A stretch of 64,000 nt of DNA from assembly GCA_911810475.1 (NCBI GenBank), contig OU461276.1, positions 1,269,501 through 1,333,500 of the forward strand. Reading direction: 5' to 3'. The translations under genes and the position numbers were made by a program. The notes beneath the pieces are model-generated. The model was not told where the DNA came from, searched no databases, and saw nothing but the letters and a program-made list of their open reading frames with translations. This stretch comes from Candidatus Celerinatantimonas neptuna (GTDB taxonomy: Bacteria; Pseudomonadota; Gammaproteobacteria; Enterobacterales; Celerinatantimonadaceae). Positions 15,442-64,000 of this stretch are shown here, piece by piece (the stretch's first letter is position 1; each line of letters starts with the position of its first letter).

Positions 15442-15445
15442 TAAA

Positions 15446-15910
15446 ATGGAAAAAAAACTACAAGTTGAAGCAATTGCAAAGGGAACGGTTATTGATCACA
15501 TTCCAGCAGGTCAAGGCATCAAAATTTTACGTTTTTTACGACTTGCCGATACCAATAAGCGCTTGACTATCGGGCTTAATTTACCCACTAAAAATCACCA
15601 ATCGAAAGATCTGATTAAAGTTGCCGATACTATCTTCAGCGAAGAGCAGGCAAATCAACTCGCCTTATTTGCACCAACAGCAACGATCAATGTCATTGAA
15701 GATTATCAGGTCGTCAAAAAATTTCAGGTCACACAACCTGAATCTATTCATGGCGTATTCCAATGCCCGAATAGTAACTGTATTACACATGGCGAAAATA
15801 TTCCCAGCCTGTTTTATATCCGCCAAGTCAATCAGGAACTAAAACTCAAATGTCACTATTGTGAAAAAAGCTTCGCCAGCAGCTTATTTATGGAATTAAA
15901 AGATAACTAA
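15446..15910 (+). CDS. pyrI: Aspartate carbamoyltransferase regulatory subunit
   Basis: A 154-residue regulatory chain that binds ATP, CTP and UTP and links catalytic trimers. The N-terminal nucleotide-binding half is clear (LQVEAIAKGTVIDHIPAGQG, then LRFLRL). The C-terminal zinc domain has its four cysteines in the right spacing: CPNSNC (about 109-114) and CHYC (about 137-140). It is co-transcribed with pyrB and followed by a terminator. Confidence 0.98.
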   Translation: MEKKLQVEAIAKGTVIDHIPAGQGIKILRFLRLADTNKRLTIGLNLPTKNHQSKDLIKVADTIFSEEQANQLALFAPTATINVIEDYQVVKKFQVTQPESIHGVFQCPNSNCITHGENIPSLFYIRQVNQELKLKCHYCEKSFASSLFMELKDN

Positions 15911-17684: not shown

Positions 17685-18430
17685 TTACTGTGGCTTAATC
17701 AATTCAGCAACTGAATCAACAAAGGGAACATTAAGTAATCGAATATGATTACCCTGGCTATGAGCAAATTCGAGCTCAGGAACCCACGATTTCCAGCCTG
17801 CTAATTGTTCCTCACGCGCATCACATGCGAGTAACAATTTAAAATCAGTCTGGGGTATCGCTGACGGGGTATAACTGGTACGGATATTGGTTGAAAAGAC
17901 CCTGAAAATTGCCTCAACCTCTGCAAGTTTTGCACTACCTGGCATAAACCTTTTTGCGATCAAGGCCACATGCAAACGCTGCAAACGCTCACCGGCAGAT
18001 AACGAGTTCAAATCACTTTCTGACAATTCCAAAGAAGTGCCTCTCATCTCAAACAAATCGATCAGTCTCAGCAGAGCTTGCAGATCACTGTATTCTCGAA
18101 CCTGGGCATCTGGAACACGAGAATCAGCAAGAACAAGAGATTCTACGCGAACACCATATGCTTCTAATCGATTGGTTAACTCAAGCGCTGCCCACCCACC
18201 AAACGAATGTCCAAATACATAGACAGTCCGGCCTTTCACATGAGCAAGCAATGCTTGGAAATAGAAATCAGCGGCTGCTTCAACCGAAGAATGAGGTAGT
18301 GCATCTCCCCATAACCCTCTGGGCTGTAACCCCAGCACAGACAGGTCATCAGGCAACTTATGAACTAAATCCATAAATCCAAAGACATTGTCCCCAGCGC
18401 CGGGAATACACACGACCACAGGCGAATGAT
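17685..18430 (-). other. NRPS-3 second thioesterase domain (TE2)
   Basis: A second alpha/beta-hydrolase with Ser7830 in GHSFGG, Asp in LADSRVP and His in QGNHIRLL. It differs strongly in sequence from TE1. Tandem thioesterases are known at the end of Pseudomonas lipopeptide synthetases such as those for arthrofactin and massetolide. Confidence 0.85.
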
Positions 18431-21400: not shown

Positions 21401-24400
21401 CCTGGAATAACGGACTGTGCGATAAGCTCCGGCTCGGCGACACCGCCTCCACCACCTGCTCAAACGGAATATCCGCATGCATCTGGGCATCCACCGATAC
21501 CTGTTTCACCCGGCTCAGTAACGTCCCCATATCCGGCTCGCCACTTAAATCTATCCGCAGCGCCTGGGTGTTCACAAACATCCCTATCAGCCCTTCAACC
21601 TCTGTCCGGCTGCGCCCCGCCACCGGGCTCCCTATCACCACATCATCCTGACCCGATAACTGCCCCATCAACACCGACCAGCTCGCCAGTAACGTCATAT
21701 ACAAGGTGCAACCATGCCGCTGACTTAACGCTTTGAGCTCGCCGGTTAAGGCCCCCTCCAGCACCACATCAACCATCCCGCCCCGGTAATCCTGCACCGC
21801 CGGACGCGCCCGGTCTTTCGGCAATAACAGCTCATCCGGAGTACCCCTCAGCTGTGCCTCCCAGTACGTCTGCTGACCCTTCAGCACGTCACCACTCAGA
21901 TAACATCTCTGCCAGTGCGCATAGTCCCCATACTGCAATGCCAGTGGCGCCAATGGGCTCGCATCCCCATCACAGTACGCCTGATACAGCTGCCCCAGCT
22001 CGTTAAACAAAACCCCCTGGGACCAGCCATCCGAGATAATATGGTGCATCGCCAGTCTTAGTCGATGCCGCTGCGCTTGCTCTTCTATCAGCTCACCACA
22101 GAACAACGGACCCCGGCTTAAATCAAAGACCGGCGGCCACTGGACACCGGCTTCATCCGACCGGCGGCTGTGCAGACTGAACCCGGTCGCCGCATCCACT
22201 ATCTGAACCGCGCCACTCCCGTCACTGGCAAAGTGGCTGCGCAGGACATGATGACGAGTCACTATCTCATCCAGGGCCGCTTTCAATGCCGGGCGGTTTA
22301 AACGCCCTTCCAGCACTAAATCAAAGGCAATCACATACGCGGCACTGGCATCCTGGTCCATCTGTGACAGGAACCACAGCCGTTGCTGGGCCATCGACAG
22401 CGGTTGTGCGACCCCTTCACCCACGCCCTGCGCTTCTATCGCCGGCAGCTCATCCGCTTCTCGCAACGTCACTATCAACGCCTGCGCTTTCAGCTGCGGA
22501 TGGGCAAATAAATCCGCCAATGACACATCCCGCCCCAGTTCACTGCGTATGCGCGAGGCCAGCTGCACCGCCATGAGCGAGTGACCGCCCAGACCAAAGA
22601 AGTCGTCATTTCGGCCAATTTTCGCAATGCCCAATAGTCCCGACCAGATATCGGCCAGCTGCTGCTCGGTATCCCCCTGCGGCGCTTCATAGGCCTGATG
22701 CACATACGCATCCTCACCCGGCTCAGGCAGCCCTTTGCGGTCCACTTTCCCGTTCGCTGTTAATGGAATTGCTTCCAGCTGCACATACGCCGCCGGCACC
22801 ATGTAATCCGGCAGCGCTGCCGATAACGCATGGCGCAGACTCTCCACGCGTGCGTCCCCACAGTAATACCCCACCAGTTGCGGCACTTCGCCGTTATCCC
22901 GGCGGGCCAGCACCACCGCATCTGCAACTCCCTCCAGAGCTTTCAGCGCCGATTCAATTTCACCCAGCTCGATTCGGAAGCCCCGGATTTTCACCTGCTG
23001 GTCATTGCGCCCTAAGTACTCGATGGAACCATCAGCCAACCACCGCCCTAAGTCACCGGTCCGGTACATCCGCGCTCCGGATTGTTGAACAAACGGGTCC
23101 GCCATAAAACGCTCCGCCGTTAAATCCGGCCGGTTCAGATACCCTTGCGCCACCTGCTCGCCACCAATGTATAACTCGCCGGTAACCCCCACGCCCACCG
23201 GCTCCCCATAAGGGTCTAACAGGTACATCCGCGTATTCGCCACCGGATAACCAATCCGTACCCGCTCATTCAGTGGCTCAGGACAGGTCCATGCCGTCAC
23301 ATCCACTGCCGCTTCTGTCGGACCATACAAGTTATGCACCGGTACTCCCGGCAGTCGCCTCTGAGACTGGCGCACCGTTTCATCCGATAACGCATCCCCG
23401 CTGCAGAATATCCCCCGCAGGCTTGCACAGCGCCCCGCTTTTTGCCCGAACAGAAAGCTCTGCAACATCGGCGGCACAAAGTGCATCAGCGTCACGCCTG
23501 TGCGCTCTATGACCTCCCTCAGGTAATCCGGGTCTTTATGCCCTTCCGGCTTCGCCATCACCAGCCGCGCACCACTGCCCAGCGTGGCAAAAAATTCCCA
23601 CACCGACACATCAAAGCTGAATGAGGTCTTTTGCAACACCACATCGCTCGCACTGAACCCATAGTCTTCTATCATCCAGCGCAGCCGGTTCACCACCCCC
23701 CGGTGGCCATTCATCACCCCTTTCGGTTGCCCGGTCGACCCCGAGGTGTATATCACATAGGCTAAATCATCAGCCTGCACACCTGCTTCACTCAGGTTGG
23801 TGCCCGCCATCGCCTGCCACCCAGACTCGGTATCTAGTGCCAGTACCCGGGTCCCTTGCGGGAGCATATCAAACCGCGCTGACAAAGCGCTGTCCGTCAG
23901 CAGCACCTTCGGCTGACTGTCCGACAGCATGTAACTTAACCGCTCCTGCGGATACCCCGGGTCCATTGGCACATAGGCACCGCCGGCTTTAAGAACCGCC
24001 AACAGCGCTGTCACCATGCCACGGCCCCGCTCCAGCGACACCGCCACCAAATCACCCCGGCCAATCCCTTTATCCCGCAGATAACGCGCCAGCTGATTCG
24101 CCTGTGCATTGAGCTCGGCATAGCTCAGCACGCCTGAATCATCGTCCACCGCGATGGCATCGCCATGCGCCAGGGCCTGCGCTTCAAACAGTGCATGAAT
24201 GCAGGGGCTGTCCAGGTAGTAACGTTCGGTCTGGTTAAAATCATAAACGACCTGATGATATTCTGACTCACTCAATACTGGTAATGACACAACAGATTGA
24301 TCCGCCGAATCAACTAACCCGACCATCACCGCATCCAGTGCCCGAATCAGCATGGCAGCTATTCGCTGTGCCCCAACACAAGCATCAGATTGAACTTCAA

Positions 24401-27400
24401 ACGAAAAGCTCCCATCTTCATGGTCATTGACCGAAACCATCAATGGATAATTGGTTCGTTCTTCAGCAAAAACAACGCCAAAACCAGAAGGTTTTTCATC
24501 CAGCTCAATTTGGCTACTTCCACCTTGATAGCGGTAATTAATCAAACTACTAAATAATGGTTGCCCGGTTCCCACACCACTGCACTGCTGAGCTTGAACC
24601 AGTGATGTATGCTCATGATTTAATAGCCCTGCCAGTCGTTGTTGTGTCTCTTTCAATACATCATCTAACGGCCTATCATTTAGCGTCAGTCGCAACGGTA
24701 GGGTATTAAGGAACATCCCCAGCATGCGATCTGCCCCTTTCCCGGCATTCATCCGGCCAAACAGTACCGTCCCAAACACCACATCATCTCGGCCTGTCCC
24801 TGCTCGGACAACAAGCCCCCAAGCCAGATGGAACAGAGCGGCTGAGCTCATTCCCCGCTGACGACTTTGTTCCCGAATAAGACGAGACAGTTCATCAGAT
24901 AGTGCCTCAGTCGCCGATTCGATCTGACGGCCATCACCTTGCACATCCGTCAAGCCGAATGGCGTGCATCCCTCATCAATATCTCCAAGTTGCTCACGGA
25001 AGTATGCTTGCTGAGCATCCCGGTCCACTTCGTGGCGGGCTCTGGCCACAAAGTCACGAAAGGCCAAAGGCGTTGGCAATTCATCTGAGCGGCCAACTAG
25101 GTAGGCTTGCAATTCTTCCAGCAGGAGTTCAAGTGTGGTGTGGTCATTACACAGATGATGCAATAACAAACAAAGCAGCTCCCGGCCATGGGATGGATCG
25201 CTGCTGTGATACGCCGCCATCATCGGTGCCTGCTGCACATTCAGTCGCAGATGTGCCGGGTCCAGGCGAGCCTTCATTTGTTCTACAACGTCATCTCCTT
25301 CGAGTGATAGCGCTTGTAGAGGCAATGGCGCATCCCGCCACACCACCTGAGCCGGCTCATTCAAACCTTCCCAAACGATGGCCGTCCGTAAAATATCATG
25401 ACGGGCAATCACAGAGCGCAATGCATTCACAAAGGCATTCAGGTTTTCAGTATCAGTAAAACCAAGAACCAGCCGAGACACATATGGATCGCCCTCCTCA
25501 CTGAGTAGATGATGGAACAAGATCCCTTCCTGCAGAGGGGCCAGTGGATAGATATCCTGAATATTGGCACTACCACCAGGCACCTTGGCTTCGATGCTTC
25601 GTAGCTCTGCCTCATTAAGTTCAACCAGCGGCAGCATCGCCGGAGTCAGTACCTGACAATCGGATGGAATGAGATTAGCGGGAACCTGATAACCGTCAGA
25701 AGCATCCAGATCACTGAGCTGCAAGGCACTAGCCAATCCTTTAAGTGACGCATCGTCAAACAATGTATTTACGCTCAGCTGATAACCATGCTCACGCAGT
25801 CGTTCAATCAGTTGCACCGCCATGAGCGAGTGCCCACCTAATCCGAAGAAGTCATCATGACGACCAATCTGTTCAATGCCTAGTAAATCGTGCCAAATCA
25901 CCGCCAGGGTTTGCTCAGCATCCCCCTCTGGCGCTTCATACACCTGATGCACATACGCCGATTCATCCGGAGCCGGCAGTGCCCGCCGGTCGACTTTCCC
26001 GTTCGCCGTCAGCGGAATGTCGTCCAGCACCACATACGCCGCCGGCACCATGTAATCCGGCAGGTCAGCCGATAACGCCTGGCGCAGACTATCCACGCTC
26101 GCGTCCCCACAGTAATACCCCACCAGTTGCGGCACATCACCGGTATCCCGACGCGCTAGCACCACTGCATCGCTCACGCCTTCCTGAGCTTTCAGCGCCG
26201 ATTCAATTTCACCCAGCTCGATTCGGAAGCCCCGGATTTTCACCTGCTGGTCATTACGCCCTAAGTATTCAATGGACCCATCCGAGTGCCAGCGCCCTAA
26301 GTCGCCGGTCCGGTACATCCGCTCGCCCGGTTCATCGCTGAACGGGTCCGCCATAAACCGCTCCGCCGTTAACTCCGGCCGGTTCAGATACCCCAGCGCC
26401 ACCTGCGCGCCACCAATGTATAACTCACCGGTTACGCCCACACCTACCGGTTCACCATAAGGGTCTAACAGATACATCCGCGTATTCGCTACCGGATAGC
26501 CTATCTTCACCCGCTCATCCAGCGGCTCAGGGCAGGTCCATGCCGTCACTTCTACCGCTGCTTCGGTCGGGCCATACAGGTTATGCACCGGCACACCCGG
26601 CAGGCGACTCTGGGACTGACGAACCGTTTCATCCGATAACGCATCCCCGCTGCAGAATATTCCCCGCAGACTCGGGCACTGTCCGGCTTTTTGACCAAAC
26701 AGGAAGCTTTGCAACATCGGTGGGACAAAGTGCACCAAGGTCACCCCGTAACGCTCTATCACCTCCCTCAGGTAATCCGGATCTTTATGCCCTTCCGGTT
26801 TCGCCATCACCAGCCGCGCGCCACTGCCCAAGGTGACAAAGAATTCCCACACCGACACATCAAAGCTAAAGGGGGTCTTCTGCAGAACCACATCGCTCGC
26901 ACTAAACTGATAGTCATCCATCATCCAGCGCAACCGGTTGACCACGCCCCGGTGGGCATTCATCACCCCTTTCGGTTGCCCGGTCGACCCCGAGGTGTAT
27001 ATCACATAGGCGATATCATCGGCCTGCACCCCGGCTTCACTCAGGTTGGTGGTCGCCATCGCCTGCCACCCGGACTCGGTATCCAGTGTCAGCACCCGGG
27101 TTTCATTCAACAACGCATCAAACCGGCTGGCCAGATGGCTGTCGGTCAGCAGCACCTTCGGCTGACTGTCTTCAAGCATGTAACTTAACCGCTCTTGCGG
27201 ATAGCCTGGGTCCATCGGCACATAGGCACCGCCTGCTTTAAGGGTCGCCATCAGCGCCATCACCAAATAACGGCTACGCTCCAGTGATATGGCTACTCGC
27301 GCTCCCTGAATCACGCCACAGTGCCGCAAATAACGCGCCAGTTGATTCACCTGCGCGTTCAGCTCGGCATAACTCAGCGCCCCGTCTTCATCTTCTACCG

Positions 27401-41693: not shown

Positions 41694-41990
41694 GCTTGTT
41701 ACCTGTTTAAAATTTGACGAGCAAGTGCCTGAACATCACTCAAATTGAATTTTGATAGTTTTAGATAGGTTAATCGTGTAGCTAGTGCATTTAATTTCGG
41801 GTTCTTGAACAAATCGGTAATCGTTATCTCGATAGATAATTTTTCACGAATACGAGTGACTAATTGAACGCCCAATAAGGAATGTCCACCTAATTCAAAG
41901 AAATCATCATTTCGACCAATTTTTTCCAGGCCTAATAACTCACCCCATAGCTTCGCAAGGGTGACTTCTAATTTCCCTTCAGGCGCTTCA
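40940..41990. repeat. Gene-junction repeat, NRPS-2/NRPS-3 copy
   Basis: About 1.05 kb containing the end of NRPS-2, the 5-base gap and the first ~250 codons of NRPS-3. It matches 50602-51652 at an offset of 9662 bases, including the shared stop codon and ribosome site. Confidence 0.9.
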
Positions 41991-51355: not shown

Positions 51356-51652
51356 GCTTGTTACCTGTTTAAAATTTGACGAGCAAGTGCCTGAACATCA
51401 CTCAAATTGAATTTTGATAGTTTTAGATAGGTTAATCGTGTAGCTAGTGCATTTAATTTCGGGTTCTTGAACAAATCGGTAATCGTTATCTCGATAGATA
51501 ATTTTTCACGAATACGAGTGACTAATTGAACGCCCAATAAGGAATGTCCACCTAATTCAAAGAAATCATCATTTCGACCAATTTTTTCCAGGCCTAATAA
51601 CTCACCCCATAGCTTCGCAAGGGTGACTTCTAATTTCCCTTCAGGCGCTTCA
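50602..51652. repeat. Gene-junction repeat, NRPS-1/NRPS-2 copy
   Basis: Partner of 40940-41990. The ribosome site AGGTAA overlaps the NRPS-1 stop, with CAAGC between stop and ATG, exactly as at the other junction. Confidence 0.9.
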
Positions 51653-54621
51653 TAAGTCGAATGCACAAACGCATCTTCACCCGGCTCAGGCAGCCCTTTA
51701 CGGTCCACCTTCCCATTCGCCGTCAGCGGAATTTCGTCCAGCTGCACATACGCCGCCGGCACCATGTAATCCGGTAATTTCAACGCCAGAGCGTTTCTCT
51801 GACTATCCACATCAACCGAGCCCACGGTATAAGCAATTAAACGCGTGACTCCCTGCGATGTCGTTTGCGCGATGACGACTGCATCTTTAATACCCGCCTG
51901 GGCCCGCAATGCTGCTTCAATTTCACCCAGCTCAATTCGGTAACCCCGGATTTTCACCTGCTGGTCATTGCGCCCTAAGTACTCAATACGACCATCGGCC
52001 AACCACCGCCCTAAGTCGCCCGTCCGGTACATCCGTGCCCCCGGCTCATCACTGAACGGGTCCGCCATAAAGCGTTCGACCGTCAAATCAGGCCGGTTCA
52101 GATAACCCCGCGCCACTCCCGCGCCGCCAATGTACATCTCACCGGTCACGCCCACCGGCACCGGCTGCCCGGCACCATTGAGAAGATACACCCGGGTATT
52201 ATCAATCGGACCCCCAATATCAAGAATATCGCGGCCGGCCCGCATCACCCCGGACGTCGCCACCACCGTCGTCTCCGTCGGTCCGTAGTTGTTCACCACC
52301 TCAAATGTCACGTCTTTCGGTAATTGCGTCAGCCGGTCTCCGCCCACCAGTAACGTTCTCAACGTTGGGTGCGTCAGGCCTCGGTTAAACGCTAACTCGG
52401 CAATCGCCGTTGACAAAAAGCCCACTTCAATCGGATGCGACTGCCACCAGTCCAGTAACTGCTGCGGGTCGCGCGATACCTCTAAGGTGGGCATCAGCAA
52501 CTGACCCCCGGCACACAATACCGGCCAGATTTCCCACACCGCCGCATCAAAGCCCACACCCGCCACACTGGAAGCACAAGTTCCCGCCGTGATGTTGAAC
52601 TGTCGATTGTGCCACGCCACCAGATGACTTAAATTCCGGTGCTCAACCAGCACCCCTTTCGGTTGCCCGGTCGACCCCGAGGTATATATCACATAGGCTA
52701 AATCGCTTGATTCTGCGTGAGGTTCAATACCATTCTGGTCAGAGAATGAAGACCAGTCCTCTGATTTTTCTAACAGGACCAGCGTCGTTGTTTCCGGCCG
52801 TGACCCAAATAATGGCGCTCGCTCCCAGTCCGTCACCAGTACTTTTGGCTGACTGTCCGACAGCATGTAACTTAAACGCTCCTGTGGATAGCCCGGGTCC
52901 ATCGGCACATACGCACCCCCGGCTTTAAGAACCGCCAACAGCGCTGTCACCATGCCACAGCCCCGCTCCAGCGACACCGCCACCAAATCACCCCGGCCAA
53001 TCCCTTTTTCCCGCAAATAACGCGCAAGTTGATTCGCCTGTGCATTCAGCTCGGCATAGCTCAGCGCCCCGACTTCATCGGCCACCGCAATCGCATCCCC
53101 ATGGGCCCGGGCCTGCGCTTCAAACAGTGCATGAATGCAAACCTGGTCGGGGTAATCGGTCCCGGTCGGGTTGAAGTCGTTCACCACCTGCTGATATTCG
53201 TGATGACTTAATACAGGCAGCTCATCGACTGTCAGAGAATCGCCTTGTACCAGTGCTTTGACCAGAGCTGTCAAAGCTCGCATGAACATATCGGCAATTC
53301 GCTCTGCACCGACCGAGGTATCCGCCAGAATATCAAGAGAAAATCCCCCATCTTGCAGATCGTTAACTGAAGCAACCAGCGGATAGTTAGTCCGCTCTTC
53401 CGAAAAGACGAGATCTACTTCTAATTCTTTTTTATCCAGGTCTAACTGGCTACTTCCACCCTGATAGCGATAGTTCAAAAGCGTACTGAATAGTGGCTGT
53501 CCGCTTCCTAAACCACTGCACTGCTGGGCCTGTACCAGCGATGTATGCTCATGACTCAATAGCCCCGCCAGTCGCTGTTGTGTCTCTTTCAATACCTCAT
53601 CCAGCGGCCGATCATTAAGCGTCAGTCGCAGCGGCAGGGTATTGAGGAACATCCCCAGCATTCGGTCTGCGCCTTTTCCGGCATTCATCCGGCCAAACAA
53701 CACGGTGCCAAACACCACATCATCCCGGCCTGTTCCAGCACGGACAACCAGTCCCCAAGCCAGATGGAACAGCGCCGCTGCGCTCATTCCCCTCTGGCGA
53801 CTCTGCGTTCGTAATGCGCAAGCAACCTCATCTGATATATCAATATTGAAGGCTTCGATTTGACTACCGTTGCCCTGGACATCGGTCAAACCGAATGGCG
53901 TACTGCCATCTTCAATATCTCCCAGCTGCTCTCTGAAGTATTCCTGCTGTTCTTCCCTGTCCACTTCATGGCAGGCTCTGGCGACAAATTCACGAAAAGC
54001 CAAGGGTGTTGGCAGTTCATCTGACCGATTCTGCAAATGCGCCTGCACTTCTTCCATCAACAACTCAAGCGTAGTGTGGTCATTACACAGATGATGCAAT
54101 AACAAACAAAGCAGCTCTCGGCCATGAGATGGATCGCTGCTATGATACGCCGCCATCATTGGTGCCTGCTGCACATTCAGCCGCAGGTGTGCCGGGTCCA
54201 GCCGAGCTTTCATTTGCTCAGCAATGTCATCACCGTCGAGCGGGAATGGATGTAATGGCAATGGCGCATCTCGCCACACCACCTGTACAGGCTCGTCGAG
54301 CCCTTCCCAGACAATGGCTGTCCGTAAAATATCATGGCGGACAATCACAGAGCGCAATGCATCCACAAAGTCATTCAGGCTCTGCGCATCGCTAAAACCC
54401 AGGACTAATCGGGATACATATGGGTCACCCTCTTCATTGAGCATGTGATGGAATAAGATCCCTTCCTGCAGTGGGGCCAGTGGATAGATATCCTGAATAT
54501 TGGCGGCTCCACCTGGCACGCGGGATGTGATCGTCTGAAGTTCGCTGTCGCGAAGATCAACAAGCGGCAGCATCGCCGGAGTCAACACCTGGCAATCGGA
54601 TGGAATGAGATTAGCGGGTAC
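51361..54621 (-). other. NRPS-1 visible module 4: dual E/C-A(Leu)-T and docking tail
   Basis: The epimerisation motif is HHMLNEEGD, with Met where Ile/Leu is usual. The Leu code is DAWFLGNVVK. The carrier domain (GGHSLLGVQLVTRIREKLSIE) and the tail ending ARQILNR are the same as in NRPS-2 and differ from internal carriers, consistent with a role in docking. Confidence 0.85.
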
Positions 54622-57600
54622 CTGATAACCGTCAGATCCATTTGAATCGCTGATCTTCAAGGCACAGGCCAATCCTCTAAGTGACGCATCGTCAAACAAC
54701 GTTTTCACACTCAGCTGATAGTCCTGTTGACGCAGTCGCTCAATCAGCTGCACCGCCATGAGCGAGTGACCACCCAGACCAAAAAAGTCGTCATTGCGGC
54801 CCACCTGTTCAACCTGCAGTAACTCGCGCCAAATCGCCGCTAAAATCTGCTCTGCTTCCCCTTGCGGCGCTTCATAGGCCGCATGCACATACGCATCCTC
54901 ACCCGGCTCAGGCAGCCCTTTGCGGTCCACTTTCCCGTTCGCTGTTAATGGAATTGCTTCCAGCTGCACATACGCCGCCGGCACCATGTAATCCGGCAGC
55001 GCTGCCGATAACGCATGGCGCAGACTCTCCACGCGTGCGTCCCCACAGTAATACCCCACCAGTTGCGGCACTTCGCCGTTATCCCGGCGGGCCAGCACCA
55101 CCGCATCTGCAACTCCCTCCAGAGCTTTCAGCGCCGATTCAATTTCACCCAGCTCTATCCGGAAGCCCCGGATTTTCACCTGCTGGTCATTGCGCCCTAA
55201 GTACTCGATGGAACCATCAGCCAACCACCGCCCTAAGTCACCGGTCCGGTACATCCGCGCTCCGGATTGTTGAACAAACGGGTCCGCCATAAAACGCTCC
55301 GCCGTTAAATCCGGCCGGTTCAGATACCCTTGCGCCACCTGCTCGCCACCAATGTATAACTCGCCGGTAACCCCCACGCCCACCGGCTCCCCATAAGGGT
55401 CTAACAGGTACATCCGCGTATTCGCCACCGGATAACCAATCCGTACCCGCTCATTCAGTGGCTCAGGACAGGTCCATGCCGTCACATCCACTGCCGCTTC
55501 TGTCGGACCATACAAGTTATGCACCGGTACTCCCGGCAGTCGCCTCTGAGACTGGCGCACCGTTTCATCCGATAACGCATCCCCGCTGCAGAATATCCCC
55601 CGCAGGCTTGCACAGCGCCCCGCTTTTTGCCCGAACAGAAAGCTCTGCAACATCGGCGGCACAAAGTGCATCAGCGTCACGCCTGTGCGCTCTATGACCT
55701 CCCTCAGGTAATCCGGGTCTTTATGCCCTTCCGGCTTCGCCATCACCAGCCGCGCACCACTGCCCAGCGTGGCAAAAAATTCCCACACCGACACATCAAA
55801 GCTGAATGAGGTCTTTTGCAACACCACATCGCTCGCACTGAACCCATAGTCTTCTATCATCCAGCGCAGCCGGTTCACCACCCCCCGGTGGCCATTCATC
55901 ACCCCTTTCGGTTGCCCGGTCGACCCCGAGGTGTATATCACATAGGCTAAATCATCAGCCTGCACACCTGCTTCACTCAGGTTGGTGCCCGCCATCGCCT
56001 GCCACCCAGACTCGGTATCCAGTGTCAGCACCTGTGTTCCCTCTGGCAACACATCAAAGCGGCTGGCCAGGTGGCTGTCGGTCAGCAGCACCTTCGGCTG
56101 ACTGTCCGACAGCATGTAACTTAAACGCTCCTGGGGATACCCCGGGTCCATCGGCACATAGGCACCGCCGGCTTTAAGAACCGCCAACAGCGCTGTCACC
56201 ATGCCACGGCCCCGCTCCAGCGACACCGCCACCAAATCACCCCGGCCAATCCCTTTATCCCGCAGATAACGCGCCAGCTGATTCGCCTGTGCATTCAGCT
56301 CGGCATAGCTCAGCACGCCGGCTTCATCTTCCACCGCGATGGCATCGCCATGCGCCAGGGCCTGCGCTTCAAACAGTGCATGAATGCAGGGGCTGTCCAG
56401 GTAGTAGCGTTCGGTCTGGTTAAATCCATGAATGACTTGATGATATTCATCAGCCCCCAGAACCGCTAAAGCCGTAATCTTTTGCTCTGGAGAATAAATT
56501 AGTGCTTCGACTAAGCCACTCAGAGCTTGAATCAGCATCTTCGATATCCGCTCACTACCTGCCGCTGCATCAGCTTGAATATCGAGAGAGAACCCACCAC
56601 TGCTCTGATTATCATTGATAGAAATAACCAGTGGATAATTGGTGCGTTCCTCCGAAGAAACGATCTCCAGTTCCATCTTATCCAGATCAAGCTGCTTACT
56701 TCCGCCCTGATAACGATAATTCACTAAACTACTAAATAATGGTTGCCCGGTACTGACACCACTGCATTGTTGCGCTTCGACTAAAGATGCCTGCTCATGA
56801 ACCAGCAGTGCAGCTAACCCTTGTTGCGTATGATTTAATGCGTCTTCAACGCTGCATTGACTCAGAGACAACCGAAGAGGTAATGTATTGAGAAACATCC
56901 CCAACATCCGGTCTGAACCTTTCCCGGCATTCATCCGGCCAAACAATACCGTGCCGAGTACCACATCATCACGCCCGGTTCCGGCTCTGACGACCAGCCC
57001 CCAGGCTAAATGGAACAAAGTAGCGGCACTCATGCCTCTGAGCCGTGTCTGGGTTCGGACTTTTTGTGCCAAGACATCAGGCACATCCACATAAGTCGAT
57101 TCGATCTGGCTACCATCACCCTGGACATCACACAGCCCAAATGGCGTACTGCCTTCTTCAATATCGCCCAATTGTTCTTTGAAATATGACCGTTGCTCTT
57201 CACGATCAGCAAAATAGCAAGACCGAGCAACAAACTCACGAAACGCCAATGGTTTTGGCAACTCATCCGCTCTTTTAGCTAAGTAAGCATGTACTTCTTC
57301 AAGCAGTAGATCCAAGGTGGTGTGATCGTTACACAGATGGTGCATTAATAAGCACAGTAACTCTCGATTATTGTCAGGATCAGCATTTTGATAAGTTTCA
57401 ATCATAGGTGCCATCTGAACATTCAATCGAAAATGAGTAAGATTTAATTTCTCCTCCATCTGTTCAAGAATATGAGAACCTTCGAGATGAAGTGGTTGCA
57501 GTGGTAACTGGACATTTTTCCAGACAACTTGCACAGGCTCGCTCACGCCTTCCCAAACAACAGCAGTTCTCAAAATGTCATGTCGTGCAATCACTGCTCT

Positions 57601-60600
57601 AAATGCATCCATGAAATCTTGCAAAGCAAATTGATCAGAAAAAGCGATAATCAATTTTGTAATATATGGATCACCTTCTTCATTAAGCAAATGGTGAAAT
57701 AGGATCCCTTCTTGTAACGGTGCTAACGGATAAATGTCTTGAATGTTCGATGCACCACCTACAACCCCGTCTTCTATATGCTGTAATTCAGCCTCACTTA
57801 GTGAGACTAAAGGCAGCATGTCTGGTGTTAGCTTCCGACAATTCTGAGGAATTTTATTGGCTGGAATATCGAGGCTATCTGACACCATCGTTTGCAGTGC
57901 AAAAGCCAGCCCTTGTAAAGAAGCATCCTCAAATAACGTTTTGACACTCAATTGATAACCGTGCTCGCGCAATCGTTCAATGAGTTGCACCGCCATTAAG
58001 GAATGACCACCTAATTCAAAAAATTGATCTTTGCGACCGATCCGCCCAATGCCCAATAGCTCAGACCAGATATCGGCCAGCTGCTGCTCGGTGTCCCCCT
58101 GCGGGGCTTCATAGGCTGCATGCACAAACGCATCTTCACCCGGCTCAGGCAGCCCTTTGCGGTCCACCTTCCCATTCGCCGTCAGCGGAATTTCGTCCAG
58201 CTGCACATACGCCGCCGGCACCATGTAATCCGGTAATTTCAACGCCAGAGCGTTTCTCTGACTATCCACATCAACCGAGCCCACGGTATAAGCAATTAAA
58301 CGCGTGACTCCCTGCGATGTCGTTTGCGCGATGACGACTGCATCTTTAATACCCGCCTGGGCCCGCAATGCTGATTCAATTTCACCCAGCTCAATTCGAT
58401 AACCCCGGATTTTCACCTGCTGGTCATTGCGCCCTAAGTACTCAATACGACCATCGGCCAACCACCGCCCTAAGTCGCCCGTCCGGTACATCCGTGCCCC
58501 CGGCTCATCACTGAACGGGTCCGCCATAAAGCGTTCGACCGTCAAATCAGGCCGGTTCAGATAACCCCGCGCCACTCCCGCACCACCAATGTACAACTCA
58601 CCCGCAACGCCCACCGGGACCGGTTGACCGGCACGATTAAGGAGATAGACCCGGGTATTATCAATCGGACCCCCAATATCAAGAATATCGCGGCCGGCCC
58701 GCATCACCCCGGACGTCGCCACCACCGTCGTCTCCGTCGGTCCGTAGTTGTTCACCACCTCAAATGTCACGTCTTTCGGTAATTGCGTCAGCCGGTCTCC
58801 GCCCACCAGTAACGTTCTCAACGTTGGGTGCGTCAGGCCTCGGTTAAACGCTAACTCGGCAATCGCCGTTGACAAAAAGCCCACTTCAATCGGTTGCGAC
58901 TGCCACCAGTCCAGTAACTGCTGCGGGTCGCGCGATATCGCCAGCGTCGGCATCAGCAACTGACCCCCGCCACACAATACCGGCCAGATTTCCCACACCG
59001 CCGCATCAAAGCCCACACCCGCCACACTGGAAGCACAAGTTCCCGCCGTGATGTTGAACTGTCGATTATGCCACGCCACCAGATGACTTAAATTCCGATG
59101 CTCAACCAGCACCCCTTTCGGTTGCCCGGTCGACCCCGAGGTATATATCACATAGGCTAAATCGTCTGCACAAGCACACCGCCCATGAGCATTCTCTGTA
59201 GACATTTGTGACCATTGATTCACCCCGTCCAATTCAATAACCGGTACCAATGACGACATATCAATAAATAAATGACTTAATTTCTTCTCGGTCAACAGAA
59301 CTTTGGGTTCACTGTCTTCAAGCATGTAGTGCAAACGATCCTGTGGATAGCCAGGATCTAACGGGATATAAGCACCACCCGCTTTCAGAGTAGCTAACAG
59401 TGCAATAATCATTTGCCGACCACGTTCAAGTGAGACAGCAACTAATTCACCCTGGCACCCACCCTTCTCACGGAGATAACACGCCAGCTGATTGGCCTGT
59501 GCATTGAGCTCGGCATAACTCAGAGCACCTAAATCATCTTTAAGCGCAATAGCATGACCTCTTGTCTTAGCCTGAACTTCCACTAACTCGTGAATGCACA
59601 CATCATCTGAAGAAGCCTGCCCGGTCCGATTAAATCCATTCACGACCTGCTGGTATTCGGTCTTTTCCAGAATTGGAAGTGCAAAAACAGAATTTTTCTG
59701 TGAATTCACTAAACCATTCAGAAGCTGCTTCCAATATCCCAGGTAGCGGCAAATGGTCTGTTCATCAAACAGGGATACGGCATAATTCAAATTACCCCAA
59801 ATCACGCCATCTGATTCACTCAGCAACAGACTTAAATCAAACTGTGACGTTTCAAGACTCTGCTTACCGGCTGACAACTCGAGTTCGCCCAATTTCCAAG
59901 TCTGCTCAGGCAGATTCTGCAACGCCAACATCACCTGGAATAATGGACTATGCGATAAACTACGGCTCGGAGATACCACTTCAACCACTTGTTCGAAAGG
60001 GATATCCTGGTGCATTTGTGCATCAAGAGACACCTGCTTCACCCGGGACAACAGCTCACCCACATCCGGTTCACCGCTTAAATCTATCCGCAGCGCCTGG
60101 GTGTTTACAAACATCCCAATCAACCCTTCTACTTCAGTTCGGGTTCGTCCGGCTATTGGGCTACCGATGACGACATCATCCTGTCCCGATAAACGGCCCA
60201 TCAGCAGTGACCAGCTCGCCAGCAGCGTCATATATAAAGTACAGCCATAATGCTGACTTAATTCGTTCAATTTTCTGGTTAATTCCGCATCGAGGGAAAC
60301 AGGAACGATTGCGCCTTTATAATCCTGCACTGCCGGACGAGTGCGATCCTTAGGCAACATCAATTCATCAGGAACGTCACTGAGTTGATTTTTCCAATAA
60401 AGTTGCTGATCTTTGAGTACATTGCCATTTAGATAAGAACGCTGCCAGTGGGCATAATCAACATACTGAAGAGCGAGAGGCGAAAGAGGGTTTGCTTCAT
60501 CGTTACTATAGGCCTGGTAGAGTTTGCCCAGCTCGTCACACAATATCCCCAGTGACCAACCATCTGAGATAATATGGTGCATGGCCAGTCGCAACAGGTG

Positions 60601-63600
60601 ACACACTTCCCGTTCTCGAATTAGCTCGCCCTGAATCAATGCTCCGTGAGACAAATCAAATTGAGGCGGCCAATGAATTTTTCTCTCATCCCAATTCCGT
60701 TCTGATAGAAGAAGACCATTTGATTGCTCAACTATTTGAACGGCTTCACCATTATGACTGGCGAAACGAGTGCGAAGAATATGATGACGGTCAACGATAC
60801 TATTCAATGCTGCTTTCAATGCATCTTTGTTCAATGCACCTTTTAACTTCAATTCACATGTAATGATATAAGCTTCATTTACTTGAGCATCCATTTGTGA
60901 TAAGAACCACAGCCGTTGCTGCATCATAGACAGCGGCTGAGCTTCACCAACATCTATTTGTCGGGCTTCAATCGCCGGTAGCTTAGCTACATCACGCTCA
61001 GCCAGGATCGACGCCTGCGCTTTCAGGTGCGGATGGGCAAATAAATCCGCCAATGACACATCCCGCCCCAGTTCACTGCGTATGCGCGAGGCCAGCTGCA
61101 CCGCCATGAGCGAGTGACCGCCCAGACCAAAAAAGTCGTCGTTGCGGCCAATTTTCTCAAGCCCTAATAACTGCGACCAGATATCGGCCAGCTGCTGCTC
61201 GGTGTCCCCCTGCGGGGCTTCATAAGCCGCATGCACAAACGCATCTTCACCCGGCTCAGGCAGCCCTTTGCGGTCCACCTTCCCATTCGCCGTCAGCGGA
61301 ATTTCGTCCAGCTGCACATACGCCGCCGGCACCATGTAATCCGGTAATTTCAACGCCAGAGCGTTTCTCTGACTATCCACATCAACCGAGCCCACGGTAT
61401 AAGCAATTAAACGCGTGACTCCCTGCGATGTCGTTTGCGCGATGACGACTGCATCTTTAATACCCGCCTGGGCCCGCAATGCTGCTTCAATTTCACCCAG
61501 CTCAATTCGGTAACCCCGGATTTTCACCTGCTGGTCATTGCGCCCTAAGTACTCAATACGACCATCGGCCAACCACCGCCCTAAGTCGCCCGTCCGGTAC
61601 ATCCGTGCCCCCGGCTCATCACTGAACGGGTCCGCCATAAAGCGTTCGACCGTCAAATCAGGCCGGTTCAGATAGCCCCGCGCCACTCCCGCGCCGCCAA
61701 TGTACAGCTCACCCGCAACGCCCACCGGGACCGGTTGACCGGCACCATTGAGAAGATACACCCGGGTATTATCAATCGGACCCCCAATATCAAGAATATC
61801 GCGGCCGGCCCGCATCACCCCGGACGTCGCCACCACCGTCGTCTCCGTCGGTCCGTAGTTGTTCACCACCTCAAATGTCACGTCTTTCGGTAATTGCGTC
61901 AGCCGGTCTCCGCCCACCAGTAACGTTCTCAACGTTGGGTGCGTCAGGCCTCGGTTAAACGCTAACTCGGCAATCGCCGTTGACAAAAAGCCCACTTCAA
62001 TCGGATGCGACTGCCACCAGTCCAGTAACTGCTGCGGGTCGCGCGATACCTCTAAGGTGGGCATCAGCAACTGACCCCCGGCACACAATACCGGCCAGAT
62101 TTCCCACACCGCCGCATCAAAGCCCACACCCGCCACACTGGAAGCACAAGTTCCCGCCGTGATGTTGAACTGTCGATTGTGCCACGCCACCAGATGACTT
62201 AAATTCCGGTGCTCAACCAGCACCCCTTTCGGTTGCCCGGTCGACCCCGAGGTATATATCACATAGGCTAAATCGTCTGCACAAGCACACCGCCCATGAG
62301 CATTCTCTGTAGACATTTGTGACCATTGATTCACCCCGTCCAATTCAATAACCGGTACCAATGACGACATATCAATAAATAAATGACTTAATTTCTTCTC
62401 GGTCAACAGAACTTTGGGTTCACTGTCTTCAAGCATGTAGTGCAAACGATCCTGTGGATAGCCCGGGTCCATCGGCACATACGCACCCCCGGCTTTAAGA
62501 ACCGCCAACAGCGCTGTCACCATGCCACAGCCCCGCTCCAGCGACACCGCCACCAAATCACCCTGGCCAATCCCTTTATCCCGCAGATAACGAGCCAGCT
62601 GATTCGCCTGTGCATTCAGCTCGGCATAGCTCAGCGCCCCGACTTCATCGGTCACCGCAATCGCATCCCCATGGGCCCGGGCCTGCGCTTCAACCAATTC
62701 ATGGATGCACATCTGGTCCGGGTAATCCATCGAGCTCGGGTTAAAGTCATGCAAGACTTGATGTCGTTCCACCTCCCCTAACAGCGGATGCGCGTTGACC
62801 GGCTGCTCTGGTGCACTCACCAGACCATGTAATAATTGCACCCAGTAATCCACATACCGCTGCACCGTCTCTTCATCAAATAACGACACCGCATAATTCA
62901 GTCCACCGCGCAGTTCACCATCAACTTCACTCACCACCAAACTTAAATCAAACTGCGCCGTCTCTATGGTGCTCTCTCCGGCCTGTAACGCCAAATCCCC
63001 CAGCGACACCCGTTGCTCCGGCAGGTTCTGTAAGGTCAGCATCACCTGGAATAACGGACTGTGCGATAAGCTCCGGCTCGGCGACACCGCCTCCACCACC
63101 TGCTCAAACGGAATCTCCGCATGCATCTGGGCATCCACCGATACCTGTTTCACCCGGCTCAGTAACGTCCCCATATCCGGCTCGCCACTTAAATCTATCC
63201 GCAGCGCCTGGGTGTTCACAAACATCCCTATCAGCCCTTCAACCTCTGTCCGGCTGCGCCCCGCCACCGGGCTCCCTATCACCACATCATCCTGACCCGA
63301 TAACTGCCCCATCAACACCGACCAGCTCGCCAGTAACGTCATATACAAGGTGCAACCATGCCGCTGACTTAACGCTTTGAGCTCGCCGGTTAAGGCCCCC
63401 TCCAGCACCACATCAACCATCCCGCCCCGGTAATCCTGCACCGCCGGACGCGCCCGGTCTTTCGGCAATAACAGCTCATCCGGAGTACCCCTCAGCTGTG
63501 CCTCCCAGTACGTCTGCTGACCCTTCAGCACGTCACCACTCAGATAACATCTCTGCCAGTGCGCATAGTCCCCATACTGCAATGCCAGTGGCGCCAATGG

Positions 63601-64000
63601 GCTCGCATCCCCATCACAGTACGCCTGATACAGCTGCCCCAGCTCGTTAAACAAAACCCCCTGGGACCAGCCATCCGAGATAATATGGTGCATCGCCAGT
63701 CTTAGTCGATGCCGCTGCGCTTGCTCTTCTATCAGCTCACCACAGAACAACGGACCCCGGCTTAAATCAAAGACCGGCGGCCACTGGACACCGGCTTCAT
63801 CCGACCGGCGGCTGTGCAGACTGAACCCGGTCGCCGCATCCACTATCTGAACCGCGCCACTCCCGTCACTGGCAAAGTGGCTGCGCAGCACATGATGACG
63901 AGTCACTATCTCATCCAGGGCCGCTTTCAATGCCGGGCGGTTTAAACGCCCGTCCAGCACTAAATCAAAGGCAATCACATACGCGGCACTGGCATCCGGG
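51361..64000 (-). CDS. NRPS-1: peptide synthetase, last four modules visible (Leu-Leu-Ser-Leu), N-terminal part beyond the window
   Basis: The frame is open to the right edge, beginning inside a condensation domain (PDASAAYVIAFDLVL). No start codon is in the window; the GTG at 63978 is only an internal valine. Order visible: C(partial)-A(Leu)-T; C-A(Leu)-T; dualE/C-A(Ser)-T; dualE/C-A(Leu)-T; C-terminal docking tail. The three Leu domains read DAWFLGNVVK and the Ser domain DVWHFSLVDK. The dual domains carry HHLLNEEGD (module 3) and HHMLNEEGD (module 4), so the second Leu and the Ser should be D. The stop is 5 bases before NRPS-2. Whether a fatty-acid starter condensation domain begins this protein or an earlier one cannot be seen. 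Confidence 0.95.
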   Translation of the reverse strand, partial: PDASAAYVIAFDLVLDGRLNRPALKAALDEIVTRHHVLRSHFASDGSGAVQIVDAATGFSLHSRRSDEAGVQWPPVFDLSRGPLFCGELIEEQAQRHRLRLAMHHIISDGWSQGVLFNELGQLYQAYCDGDASPLAPLALQYGDYAHWQRCYLSGDVLKGQQTYWEAQLRGTPDELLLPKDRARPAVQDYRGGMVDVVLEGALTGELKALSQRHGCTLYMTLLASWSVLMGQLSGQDDVVIGSPVAGRSRTEVEGLIGMFVNTQALRIDLSGEPDMGTLLSRVKQVSVDAQMHAEIPFEQVVEAVSPSRSLSHSPLFQVMLTLQNLPEQRVSLGDLALQAGESTIETAQFDLSLVVSEVDGELRGGLNYAVSLFDEETVQRYVDYWVQLLHGLVSAPEQPVNAHPLLGEVERHQVLHDFNPSSMDYPDQMCIHELVEAQARAHGDAIAVTDEVGALSYAELNAQANQLARYLRDKGIGQGDLVAVSLERGCGMVTALLAVLKAGGAYVPMDPGYPQDRLHYMLEDSEPKVLLTEKKLSHLFIDMSSLVPVIELDGVNQWSQMSTENAHGRCACADDLAYVIYTSGSTGQPKGVLVEHRNLSHLVAWHNRQFNITAGTCASSVAGVGFDAAVWEIWPVLCAGGQLLMPTLEVSRDPQQLLDWWQSHPIEVGFLSTAIAELAFNRGLTHPTLRTLLVGGDRLTQLPKDVTFEVVNNYGPTETTVVATSGVMRAGRDILDIGGPIDNTRVYLLNGAGQPVPVGVAGELYIGGAGVARGYLNRPDLTVERFMADPFSDEPGARMYRTGDLGRWLADGRIEYLGRNDQQVKIRGYRIELGEIEAALRAQAGIKDAVVIAQTTSQGVTRLIAYTVGSVDVDSQRNALALKLPDYMVPAAYVQLDEIPLTANGKVDRKGLPEPGEDAFVHAAYEAPQGDTEQQLADIWSQLLGLEKIGRNDDFFGLGGHSLMAVQLASRIRSELGRDVSLADLFAHPHLKAQASILAERDVAKLPAIEARQIDVGEAQPLSMMQQRLWFLSQMDAQVNEAYIITCELKLKGALNKDALKAALNSIVDRHHILRTRFASHNGEAVQIVEQSNGLLLSERNWDERKIHWPPQFDLSHGALIQGELIREREVCHLLRLAMHHIISDGWSLGILCDELGKLYQAYSNDEANPLSPLALQYVDYAHWQRSYLNGNVLKDQQLYWKNQLSDVPDELMLPKDRTRPAVQDYKGAIVPVSLDAELTRKLNELSQHYGCTLYMTLLASWSLLMGRLSGQDDVVIGSPIAGRTRTEVEGLIGMFVNTQALRIDLSGEPDVGELLSRVKQVSLDAQMHQDIPFEQVVEVVSPSRSLSHSPLFQVMLALQNLPEQTWKLGELELSAGKQSLETSQFDLSLLLSESDGVIWGNLNYAVSLFDEQTICRYLGYWKQLLNGLVNSQKNSVFALPILEKTEYQQVVNGFNRTGQASSDDVCIHELVEVQAKTRGHAIALKDDLGALSYAELNAQANQLACYLREKGGCQGELVAVSLERGRQMIIALLATLKAGGAYIPLDPGYPQDRLHYMLEDSEPKVLLTEKKLSHLFIDMSSLVPVIELDGVNQWSQMSTENAHGRCACADDLAYVIYTSGSTGQPKGVLVEHRNLSHLVAWHNRQFNITAGTCASSVAGVGFDAAVWEIWPVLCGGGQLLMPTLAISRDPQQLLDWWQSQPIEVGFLSTAIAELAFNRGLTHPTLRTLLVGGDRLTQLPKDVTFEVVNNYGPTETTVVATSGVMRAGRDILDIGGPIDNTRVYLLNRAGQPVPVGVAGELYIGGAGVARGYLNRPDLTVERFMADPFSDEPGARMYRTGDLGRWLADGRIEYLGRNDQQVKIRGYRIELGEIESALRAQAGIKDAVVIAQTTSQGVTRLIAYTVGSVDVDSQRNALALKLPDYMVPAAYVQLDEIPLTANGKVDRKGLPEPGEDAFVHAAYEAPQGDTEQQLADIWSELLGIGRIGRKDQFFELGGHSLMAVQLIERLREHGYQLSVKTLFEDASLQGLAFALQTMVSDSLDIPANKIPQNCRKLTPDMLPLVSLSEAELQHIEDGVVGGASNIQDIYPLAPLQEGILFHHLLNEEGDPYITKLIIAFSDQFALQDFMDAFRAVIARHDILRTAVVWEGVSEPVQVVWKNVQLPLQPLHLEGSHILEQMEEKLNLTHFRLNVQMAPMIETYQNADPDNNRELLCLLMHHLCNDHTTLDLLLEEVHAYLAKRADELPKPLAFREFVARSCYFADREEQRSYFKEQLGDIEEGSTPFGLCDVQGDGSQIESTYVDVPDVLAQKVRTQTRLRGMSAATLFHLAWGLVVRAGTGRDDVVLGTVLFGRMNAGKGSDRMLGMFLNTLPLRLSLSQCSVEDALNHTQQGLAALLVHEQASLVEAQQCSGVSTGQPLFSSLVNYRYQGGSKQLDLDKMELEIVSSEERTNYPLVISINDNQSSGGFSLDIQADAAAGSERISKMLIQALSGLVEALIYSPEQKITALAVLGADEYHQVIHGFNQTERYYLDSPCIHALFEAQALAHGDAIAVEDEAGVLSYAELNAQANQLARYLRDKGIGRGDLVAVSLERGRGMVTALLAVLKAGGAYVPMDPGYPQERLSYMLSDSQPKVLLTDSHLASRFDVLPEGTQVLTLDTESGWQAMAGTNLSEAGVQADDLAYVIYTSGSTGQPKGVMNGHRGVVNRLRWMIEDYGFSASDVVLQKTSFSFDVSVWEFFATLGSGARLVMAKPEGHKDPDYLREVIERTGVTLMHFVPPMLQSFLFGQKAGRCASLRGIFCSGDALSDETVRQSQRRLPGVPVHNLYGPTEAAVDVTAWTCPEPLNERVRIGYPVANTRMYLLDPYGEPVGVGVTGELYIGGEQVAQGYLNRPDLTAERFMADPFVQQSGARMYRTGDLGRWLADGSIEYLGRNDQQVKIRGFRIELGEIESALKALEGVADAVVLARRDNGEVPQLVGYYCGDARVESLRHALSAALPDYMVPAAYVQLEAIPLTANGKVDRKGLPEPGEDAYVHAAYEAPQGEAEQILAAIWRELLQVEQVGRNDDFFGLGGHSLMAVQLIERLRQQDYQLSVKTLFDDASLRGLACALKISDSNGSDGYQVPANLIPSDCQVLTPAMLPLVDLRDSELQTITSRVPGGAANIQDIYPLAPLQEGILFHHMLNEEGDPYVSRLVLGFSDAQSLNDFVDALRSVIVRHDILRTAIVWEGLDEPVQVVWRDAPLPLHPFPLDGDDIAEQMKARLDPAHLRLNVQQAPMMAAYHSSDPSHGRELLCLLLHHLCNDHTTLELLMEEVQAHLQNRSDELPTPLAFREFVARACHEVDREEQQEYFREQLGDIEDGSTPFGLTDVQGNGSQIEAFNIDISDEVACALRTQSRQRGMSAAALFHLAWGLVVRAGTGRDDVVFGTVLFGRMNAGKGADRMLGMFLNTLPLRLTLNDRPLDEVLKETQQRLAGLLSHEHTSLVQAQQCSGLGSGQPLFSTLLNYRYQGGSSQLDLDKKELEVDLVFSEERTNYPLVASVNDLQDGGFSLDILADTSVGAERIADMFMRALTALVKALVQGDSLTVDELPVLSHHEYQQVVNDFNPTGTDYPDQVCIHALFEAQARAHGDAIAVADEVGALSYAELNAQANQLARYLREKGIGRGDLVAVSLERGCGMVTALLAVLKAGGAYVPMDPGYPQERLSYMLSDSQPKVLVTDWERAPLFGSRPETTTLVLLEKSEDWSSFSDQNGIEPHAESSDLAYVIYTSGSTGQPKGVLVEHRNLSHLVAWHNRQFNITAGTCASSVAGVGFDAAVWEIWPVLCAGGQLLMPTLEVSRDPQQLLDWWQSHPIEVGFLSTAIAELAFNRGLTHPTLRTLLVGGDRLTQLPKDVTFEVVNNYGPTETTVVATSGVMRAGRDILDIGGPIDNTRVYLLNGAGQPVPVGVTGEMYIGGAGVARGYLNRPDLTVERFMADPFSDEPGARMYRTGDLGRWLADGRIEYLGRNDQQVKIRGYRIELGEIEAALRAQAGIKDAVVIAQTTSQGVTRLIAYTVGSVDVDSQRNALALKLPDYMVPAAYVQLDEIPLTANGKVDRKGLPEPGEDAFVHSTYEAPEGKLEVTLAKLWGELLGLEKIGRNDDFFELGGHSLLGVQLVTRIREKLSIEITITDLFKNPKLNALATRLTYLKLSKFNLSDVQALARQILNR
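54622..57867 (-). other. NRPS-1 visible module 3: dual E/C-A(Ser)-T
   Basis: The dual domain has HHLLNEEGD near its start and HHLCNDH in the acceptor site. It too is a diverged copy compared with the others. The adenylation domain reads DVWHFSLVDK, the same ten residues as the serine code of EntF. The following dual domain predicts D-Ser. Confidence 0.85.
57868..60936 (-). other. NRPS-1 visible module 2: C-A(Leu)-T
   Basis: An ordinary condensation domain (MHHIISDGWSLG) whose sequence is clearly different from the other copies and less GC-rich, so it has escaped homogenisation. The Leu code is DAWFLGNVVK. The next module opens with a dual E/C domain, which predicts D-Leu. Confidence 0.85.
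60937..64000 (-). other. NRPS-1 visible module 1: C(partial)-A(Leu)-T
   Basis: The condensation domain is missing its first part but keeps MHHIISDGWS. The adenylation code read from FDAAVW, VGFL, LLVGG, NNYGP and TTVVA is DAWFLGNVVK, the known leucine code. The carrier domain is of the kind found here before ordinary condensation domains (SRIRSELGRD), so this Leu should stay L. Confidence 0.85.

Follow-up and report, generated by a model that had tools for sequence, protein, structure and literature searches.

A predicted 16-module lipopeptide-type synthetase with near-identical protein junctions in Candidatus Celerinatantimonas neptuna

Organization of the synthetase locus

The analyzed window, a stretch of 64,000 nucleotides, corresponds to bases 1269501-1333500 of a single-contig genome of 4,132,137 bases, and coordinates marked as extended carry the window numbering past 64000 into the neighboring genome stretch. 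Three large synthetase genes were located on the minus strand: N1, the initiating synthetase with modules 1-6 (51361-64000, continuing to 70515 extended; 6384 aa), N2, the middle synthetase with modules 7-9 (41699-51355; 3218 aa), and N3, the terminating synthetase with modules 10-16 and a TE-TE end (17685-41693; 8002 aa). According to the reading of the open frames, all three were open throughout, comprising 17,604 codons without a stop. The window holds modules 3-6 of N1, and the C domain of module 3 (62677-64047) overruns its edge by 47 bases. A profile search of the three proteins returned 16 Condensation-domain matches, one per module; therefore, the line has no separate epimerization domains. 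The domain order was C-A-T in all 16 modules, and 14 of the 16 A domains were located inside the window.

The C-terminal end of N3 was formed by a tandem thioesterase region (17688-19376, minus strand), which was matched by PF00975 in two stretches and carried the intact serine motifs GWSFGG and GHSFGG. An orphan tandem-TE gene was also present elsewhere in the genome (3941089-3942705; 568 aa), with 40% identity to the N3 TE pair and the nearest Condensation match ending at 3929436, about 11.7 kb away. In its TE1, the motif GWAYGG replaces GWSFGG, changing the serine to alanine. A phosphopantetheinyl transferase (PPTase)-family match was found in a 257-aa open frame at another site of the genome.

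The synthetase genes were accompanied by the gene of a cyclic-peptide export ABC transporter (15970-17673, minus strand; 567 aa), which scored 385.7 bits against TIGR01194 (cut-off 286.2). Its score against the multidrug ABC model NF007813 was higher (412.4), yet below the cut-off of that model (604). The left border of the insertion site was formed by pyrB and pyrI (14512-15910, plus strand), both scoring over the cut-off, while the right-hand neighbors of the synthetase genes were a LacI-family gene and then, as judged by eye, a fructose PTS-like operon. Scanning for promoters upstream of N1 yielded 13 sites compared with 9.1 (sd 3.1) in shuffled sequences, and was not informative. A preliminary description of the window had named three collinear synthetase proteins, tandem thioesterases, an exporter, and a pyrBI neighborhood, all of which were confirmed, with N1, N2, and N3 as minus-strand open frames and the exporter as a cyclic-peptide-type ABC protein. 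It had also allowed for more modules to the right, and two of these, for Leu and Ser, were found past the window edge.

Adenylation specificity and predicted residues

Ten-position specificity codes were extracted from all 16 A domains by motif anchors, at positions that we take to correspond to the GrsA numbering. The Leu code DAWFLGNVVK was found in eight of the 16 modules, the Ser code DVWHFSLVDK in four, and the Ser code DVWHFSLVEK in three (modules 8, 11, and 14). The Thr code DFWNIGMVHK was found once, in module 10, which contains the only Thr-type A domain of the line (38700-40169, minus strand). Read from these codes, the residue order was Leu-Ser-Leu-Leu-Ser-Leu for N1, Ser-Ser-Leu for N2, and Thr-Ser-Leu-Leu-Ser-Ser-Leu for N3. 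The 14 codes previously given for the window were all re-read identically, and the restriction to Leu, Ser, and Thr that had been claimed from them now extends over all 16 modules.

In the portion of a published code survey that was available, both the Leu and the Thr codes found here are contained, and DFWNIGMVHK is mentioned for modified Thr and Ser as well (PMC12283262). The Ser codes given there are DVWHLSLVDK or DVWHMSLVDK, variable at positions 299 and 330. The Ser codes of this line fit that pattern apart from those of modules 8, 11, and 14, whose ninth residue is E, and a Ser code with E331 was not found in the same portion of the survey. The A domains carrying DVWHFSLVEK are located at 45248-46693 (module 8), 35562-37007 (module 11), and 25974-27419 (module 14); they are near-identical copies, and each of these modules is followed by a dual C/E domain.

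Condensation domains and predicted stereochemistry

Two groups of C domains were clear in both the DNA and the protein comparison, with C1 standing apart. Group A, of the LCL type, carried HHIISDG or HHIIADG and had C domains of Txo2, Txo1, and TycC among its best PDB matches. It comprised eight of the 16 domains (C3, C4, C7, C8, C10, C11, C14, and C16), of which C8 (46694-48064, minus strand; HHIISDG) is an example. Group B, of the dual type, carried HHLCNDH and, in addition, the elongated form HH[L/M]L[N/S]EEGD; in the PDB, it was best matched by microcystin, bacitracin, and PvdL domains. Dual C/E domains are characterized by HH[I/L]XXXXGD in the part of PMC3039948 used here, and this motif was present in six of the seven group B domains, with HHMLNEEGD in the seventh, C6, and in none of the nine other C domains of the line. 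On the basis of motif and tree, C2, C5, C6, C9, C12, C13, and C15 (7/16) were assigned to the dual C/E type, as exemplified by C9 (43445-44821, minus strand; HHLLSEEGD).

The C-domain tree had 39 tips, including the domains of a Pseudomonas syringae terminal synthetase and of Eleftheria terrae. The E. terrae loci were rejected as references for teixobactin stereochemistry, since they gave no match to teixobactin, and served as extra tips only. Group B was joined with split support of 1.000 to the two C domains of the P. syringae Leu-Ser-Ile synthetase that would come after D-Ser in viscosin, and group A was joined with support of 0.999 to the C domain that would come after L-Leu. The viscosin end is given as D-Ser6, L-Leu7, D-Ser8, L-Ile9 in a table of PMC3039948, and we infer that the P. 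syringae terminal synthetase used as the reference makes a viscosin-type product. The motifs of the reference C domains, HHVSTAQGD and QHRAVQGAD, were looser than those found here. The opposite assignment, with the HHIISDG type as dual C/E, was rejected on the published HH[I/L]XXXXGD motif and the comparison with the viscosin-like system of P. syringae.

The best PDB matches of C1 were 7c1k, 7c1h, and 7c1p (236-231 bits), followed by EntF with 163.5. According to the section consulted of PMC7804268, these three entries show the RzmA starter domain, which uses acyl-CoA, and C1 also stood apart from the other 15 C domains in the tree. C1 thus resembles a lipoinitiation domain and is predicted to act as an N-acylating starter, so that a 16-residue lipopeptide would be expected. 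With the C/E assignments, the predicted order would be D-Leu1, L-Ser2, L-Leu3, D-Leu4, D-Ser5, L-Leu6 for N1, L-Ser7, D-Ser8, L-Leu9 for N2, and L-Thr10, D-Ser11, D-Leu12, L-Leu13, D-Ser14, L-Ser15, L-Leu16 for N3. This D/L order is provisional because some dual C/E domains are inactive, as stated in part of PMC9948697.

Host, insertion site, and relatives elsewhere

The Vibrio/Aeromonas-like setting of the preliminary description was replaced, the host being a Celerinatantimonas. Its 16S gene had no mismatch to any of the four published Celerinatantimonas FISH probes (probe letters from PMC8636270), a set with some matches outside the genus according to the same source, and nifH was present (471.9 bits; cut-off 394.35). 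In the sections of PMC8636270 at hand, Ca. C. neptuna is described as a seagrass-root endophyte and C. diazotrophica as originating from salt marsh. In the literature collection searched, no report paired Celerinatantimonas with "nonribosomal".

The insertion site was compared with that of one other Celerinatantimonas genome, from which the four genes N1, N2, N3, and the exporter (about 55 kb) were absent. There, pyrI was followed by 19 bases and then by a 47% relative of the gene at 71431-72345 (extended), and the matched genes kept their order on both sides of the island. The gene at 71431-72345, which adjoins the island and encodes 304 aa, had no Pfam match, and the gene at 77590-79047 (485 aa), outside the island, had no match in the compared stretch of the second genome. 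The island transporter had no counterpart in the second genome beyond generic ABC matches, the best with 22% identity. The island therefore represents a presence/absence difference of four genes and about 55 kb, and two genomes cannot separate gain from loss. No LuxR-family regulator was found among the four island genes; the neighbors on both sides match the backbone of the second genome, and the flanks were partly scanned. Likewise, no tripartite exporter of the PleABC (MacAB-like) type was found in the island, whose only exporter is the TIGR01194 protein.

A recently expanded or decaying cluster, silent or poorly productive, in which the internal copies described below would reflect drift and not function, would be in line with an island that is missing from the second genome and has no regulator gene, as well as with the altered TE1 serine motif of the orphan TE-TE gene. 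We nevertheless consider this explanation unlikely, as no stop interrupts the 17,604 codons of the three frames, both N3 TE serine motifs are intact, and a readable code was obtained from each of the 16 A domains.

The same genome contains two NRPS/PKS clusters of similar layout at 968509-984665 and 3915096-3931263, which encode proteins of 1030/593/1833/1350 aa and 1022/600/1838/1351 aa, respectively. The two clusters are probably paralogous, as their C domains form pairs in the tree. A hybrid NRPS/PKS cluster was located at 3415224-3444371, with proteins of 4160, 2163, 1520, and 510 aa and, by eye, transporter-like genes, and a small cluster with Condensation matches at 152275-158715, with ABC transporter-like genes and a short-chain dehydrogenase recognized by eye.

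Relatives were searched with the N3 TE pair and the transporter as queries, in genome sets that are samples. At E<=1e-60, the TE pair matched three of 394 genomes of the order, namely its own and two of one genus in another family with 32% identity. Only its own genome was matched among 369 genomes of the class (1e-50) and 12 genomes of the family (1e-20). Two loci with 32 and 35% identity were found among named genome contigs, and 302 records, all under 60% identity, among plasmids. The transporter matched 70 of the 394 order genomes at E<=1e-70, with 36-38% identity for the best matches outside its own genome. The amino acid set resembles that of smaller Leu/Ser/Thr peptides made by marine Vibrionaceae, as given by the preliminary description, and a lipodepsipeptide closely related to these could be envisaged. 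We regard such a close relationship as most unlikely, with the other TE-pair relatives at E<=1e-60 confined to a single genus of the 394 order genomes, a set in which Vibrionaceae are not named.

Internal copying of the assembly line

Paired tracts were defined as stretches of at least 400 bp in which 200-base windows had at least 98% identity, with a few whole tracts averaging just under 98%. Such near-identical internal pairs accounted for 68.1% of the synthetase DNA. The longest tract, with 6058 bp from T7 to A9 (42261-48318, minus strand), was 99.55% identical to a second copy from T10 to A12 (32575-38632, minus strand), and a third copy of 4850 bp from T13 to A15 (24136-28985, minus strand) was 99.65% identical to 43410-48259. 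The domains C9, C12, and C15 were mutually 99.8-99.9% identical, and the domains of the Ser modules 8, 11, and 14 were 99.7-100% identical. The first three modules of N3 look like a copy of N2 with a Thr-type instead of a Ser-type first A domain, and the assembly line seems to have been lengthened through duplication of its own segments.

With exact repeats that reach 2493 bp and near-identical tracts of up to 6058 bp, short reads would be defeated, and a false expansion or collapse of modules during assembly would mean that the true module number differs. Such an artefact is very unlikely in our judgment, because the genome is one contig of 4.13 Mb, the differences among the copies are dispersed, and dissimilar domains lie between them, such as A7 (Ser) and A10 (Thr) with 53.6% DNA identity.

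The base composition of the locus was a mosaic, with G+C values of 0.365 for the starter C domain, 0.473 for A1, 0.54-0.595 for the other Leu and Ser A domains, 0.488 for the Thr A domain, 0.453 for the TE region, and 0.41 for the transporter. The GC3 of duplicated codons was 0.606, compared with 0.441 for unique codons. Biased gene conversion alone was rejected as the cause, because the duplicated T6/T9 were low in G+C (0.40 and 0.41) and C9/12/15 were middling (0.51); a high-G+C donor is an equally possible source of the pattern.

The near-identical internal copies and the matching protein junctions are new in this analysis and were absent from the preliminary description. Lengthening by module duplication is not new in kind, since the Pseudomonas literature, in the parts used here, describes it among the ways in which such systems change; what stands out in this line is the copied subunit junction.

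Protein junctions and predicted product series

The N1/N2 and N2/N3 boundaries fall in tracts of 1086 bp that are 98.9% identical. The last 66 aa of N1 (51364-51561, minus strand), which comprise the end of T6 and a putative docking tail, and the last 66 aa of N2 (41702-41899, minus strand), with the end of T9 and the corresponding tail, were identical at 66 of 66 positions. The N-terminal 217 aa of N2 (50705-51355, minus strand), a putative docking end and the first part of the C domain, differed from those of N3 (41043-41693, minus strand) at one position, S33G, and the intergenic spacer of 5 nt was identical at both junctions. Compared over 60-aa termini, the N1/N2/N3 junctions were 100% and 98% identical, whereas 18 comparable pairs across three other multi-protein assembly lines of the same genome were 3-27% identical. 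No Pfam docking family matched the first 70 aa of N2 or the last 66 aa of N1, including, for the N2 end, the TubC_N family of rhabdopeptide/xenortide (RXP)-type docking, which matched the P. syringae control. The docking role of these ends is inferred from their position.

At both junctions, a predicted L-Leu donor is presented to an LCL domain with the same first part. Since the ends are near-identical and both donors are predicted to be L-Leu, docking should not itself fix the order N1-N2-N3, and should not distinguish the transfers from N1 to N2, N1 to N3, N2 to N3, and N2 to N2. Identical docking ends do not prove skipping, and the choice of partner could depend on the preference of the C domain, on assembly during translation, or on how much of each subunit is present. 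A strictly collinear line would produce one lipo-hexadecapeptide, with gating at the C domain, co-translational assembly, or the ratio of the subunits maintaining the order, and we give this reading close to an even chance. It agrees with the collinearity reported for most known Pseudomonas lipopeptide systems in the part of PMC3656897 used here. Furthermore, the sequences of C7 and C10 part beyond about residue 217 of the protein, so that the remainder of the C domain, or the A domain, could act as the gate. Strict collinearity is disfavored by the near-identity of the putative docking ends and of the opening segments of C7 and C10, together with the same predicted L-Leu on both donors.

Somewhat more tentatively, we propose that with the copied subunit junction docking no longer encodes order, making N2 both optional and repeatable and giving rise to a native Ser-Ser-Leu ladder of 13, 16, and 19 residues. 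Skipping of N2 is predicted to yield the 13-mer and repetition of N2 the 19-mer, with a computed ladder step, one Ser-Ser-Leu, of 287.148 Da. For an assumed 3-hydroxydecanoyl lactone, the calculated [M+H]+ values are 1498.93, 1786.08, and 2073.23 for the 13-, 16-, and 19-mer. The strictly collinear 16-mer and the ladder series are about as likely as each other.

Comparison with known systems

The line shared with the Pseudomonas lipopeptide synthetases (non-Mycin) a starter-like first C domain, exclusively C-A-T modules, several collinear proteins, dual C/E domains in place of E domains, and the TE-TE end. It differed from them in having 16 modules for Leu, Ser, and Thr only, a host outside Pseudomonas, and near-identical protein junctions. 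As far as the source used describes them, tolaasin clusters have a SyrD homologue as the exporter, whereas the exporter found here belongs to the cyclic-peptide ABC family. The two are presumably of one kind. The Pseudomonas systems have LuxR genes and PleABC according to part of PMC9948697, and the island is without both. Viscosin and most amphisins contain D-allo-Thr (table in PMC3039948), whereas the Thr is predicted to be L here. In terms of size, one section on the Pseudomonas families names systems of 7 to 14 residues, and the table in PMC3039948 also lists the longer tolaasins and peptins. Judged from its sequence, the line appears to bear the enzymatic marks of Pseudomonas-type lipopeptide synthetases and not the genomic ones, a LuxR gene and PleABC in the island. 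The lipopeptide-type assembly line and the dual E/C domains of the preliminary description were both supported, the former by the starter-like C1, the dual C/E domains, the TE pair, and the exporter type, and the latter by motif and tree in seven of the 16 C domains.

The terminal synthetase of P. syringae PA-4-7F, viscosin-like by its codes, has a TE pair with 32% identity to that of N3 and C domains that belong to the same two types, arranged as C/E, LCL, and C/E, but consists of three modules for Leu-Ser-Ile (by eye) and has a TubC_N docking domain. With respect to the junctions, the RXP synthetases may offer a parallel: their docking ends serve several junctions, so that a length series is expected, and their subunits, acting in varied order, make peptide libraries, as described in part of PMC6195595. 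These subunits are single modules with TubC-like docking domains, whereas the proteins found here have 6, 3, and 7 modules. SrfA-B was bypassed in a surfactin synthetase whose COM domains had been exchanged so that the docking ends matched, according to the part of PMC9113145 consulted; that system was engineered, whereas the matching ends found here are natural and lie in duplicated DNA.

Proposed assembly and its meaning

Taken together, it is probable that the locus encodes an exporter and an NRPS of the Pseudomonas lipopeptide type, made up of three proteins and 16 modules, in which hand-over from N1 to N3 and from N2 to N2 may be allowed, besides or instead of the synthesis of one 16-mer. 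In this assembly, C1 would attach a fatty acid to Leu1, and the chain would travel from N1 to N2 and N3. TE1 would then release the chain, possibly closing a lactone at Thr10 or at a Ser, and the ABC protein would export the peptide. Because the junctions are near-identical and both donors are predicted to be L-Leu, N1 could also hand the chain straight to N3, and N2 could act in succession to another N2, so that the products would be acyl-(LSLLSL)(SSL)n(TSLLSSL), where n is 0, 1, or 2.

With these results, the structure of a large lipopeptide is predicted in concrete terms for a nitrogen-fixing genus known from the roots of seagrass and salt-marsh grass (PMC8636270, in the sections at hand). 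The locus also represents a natural experiment, in which a duplication across a gene boundary would have matched the putative docking ends of successive subunits and raised the question of how subunit order is then kept. If the proposed hand-over is true, one assembly line would make a ladder of products and not a single one.
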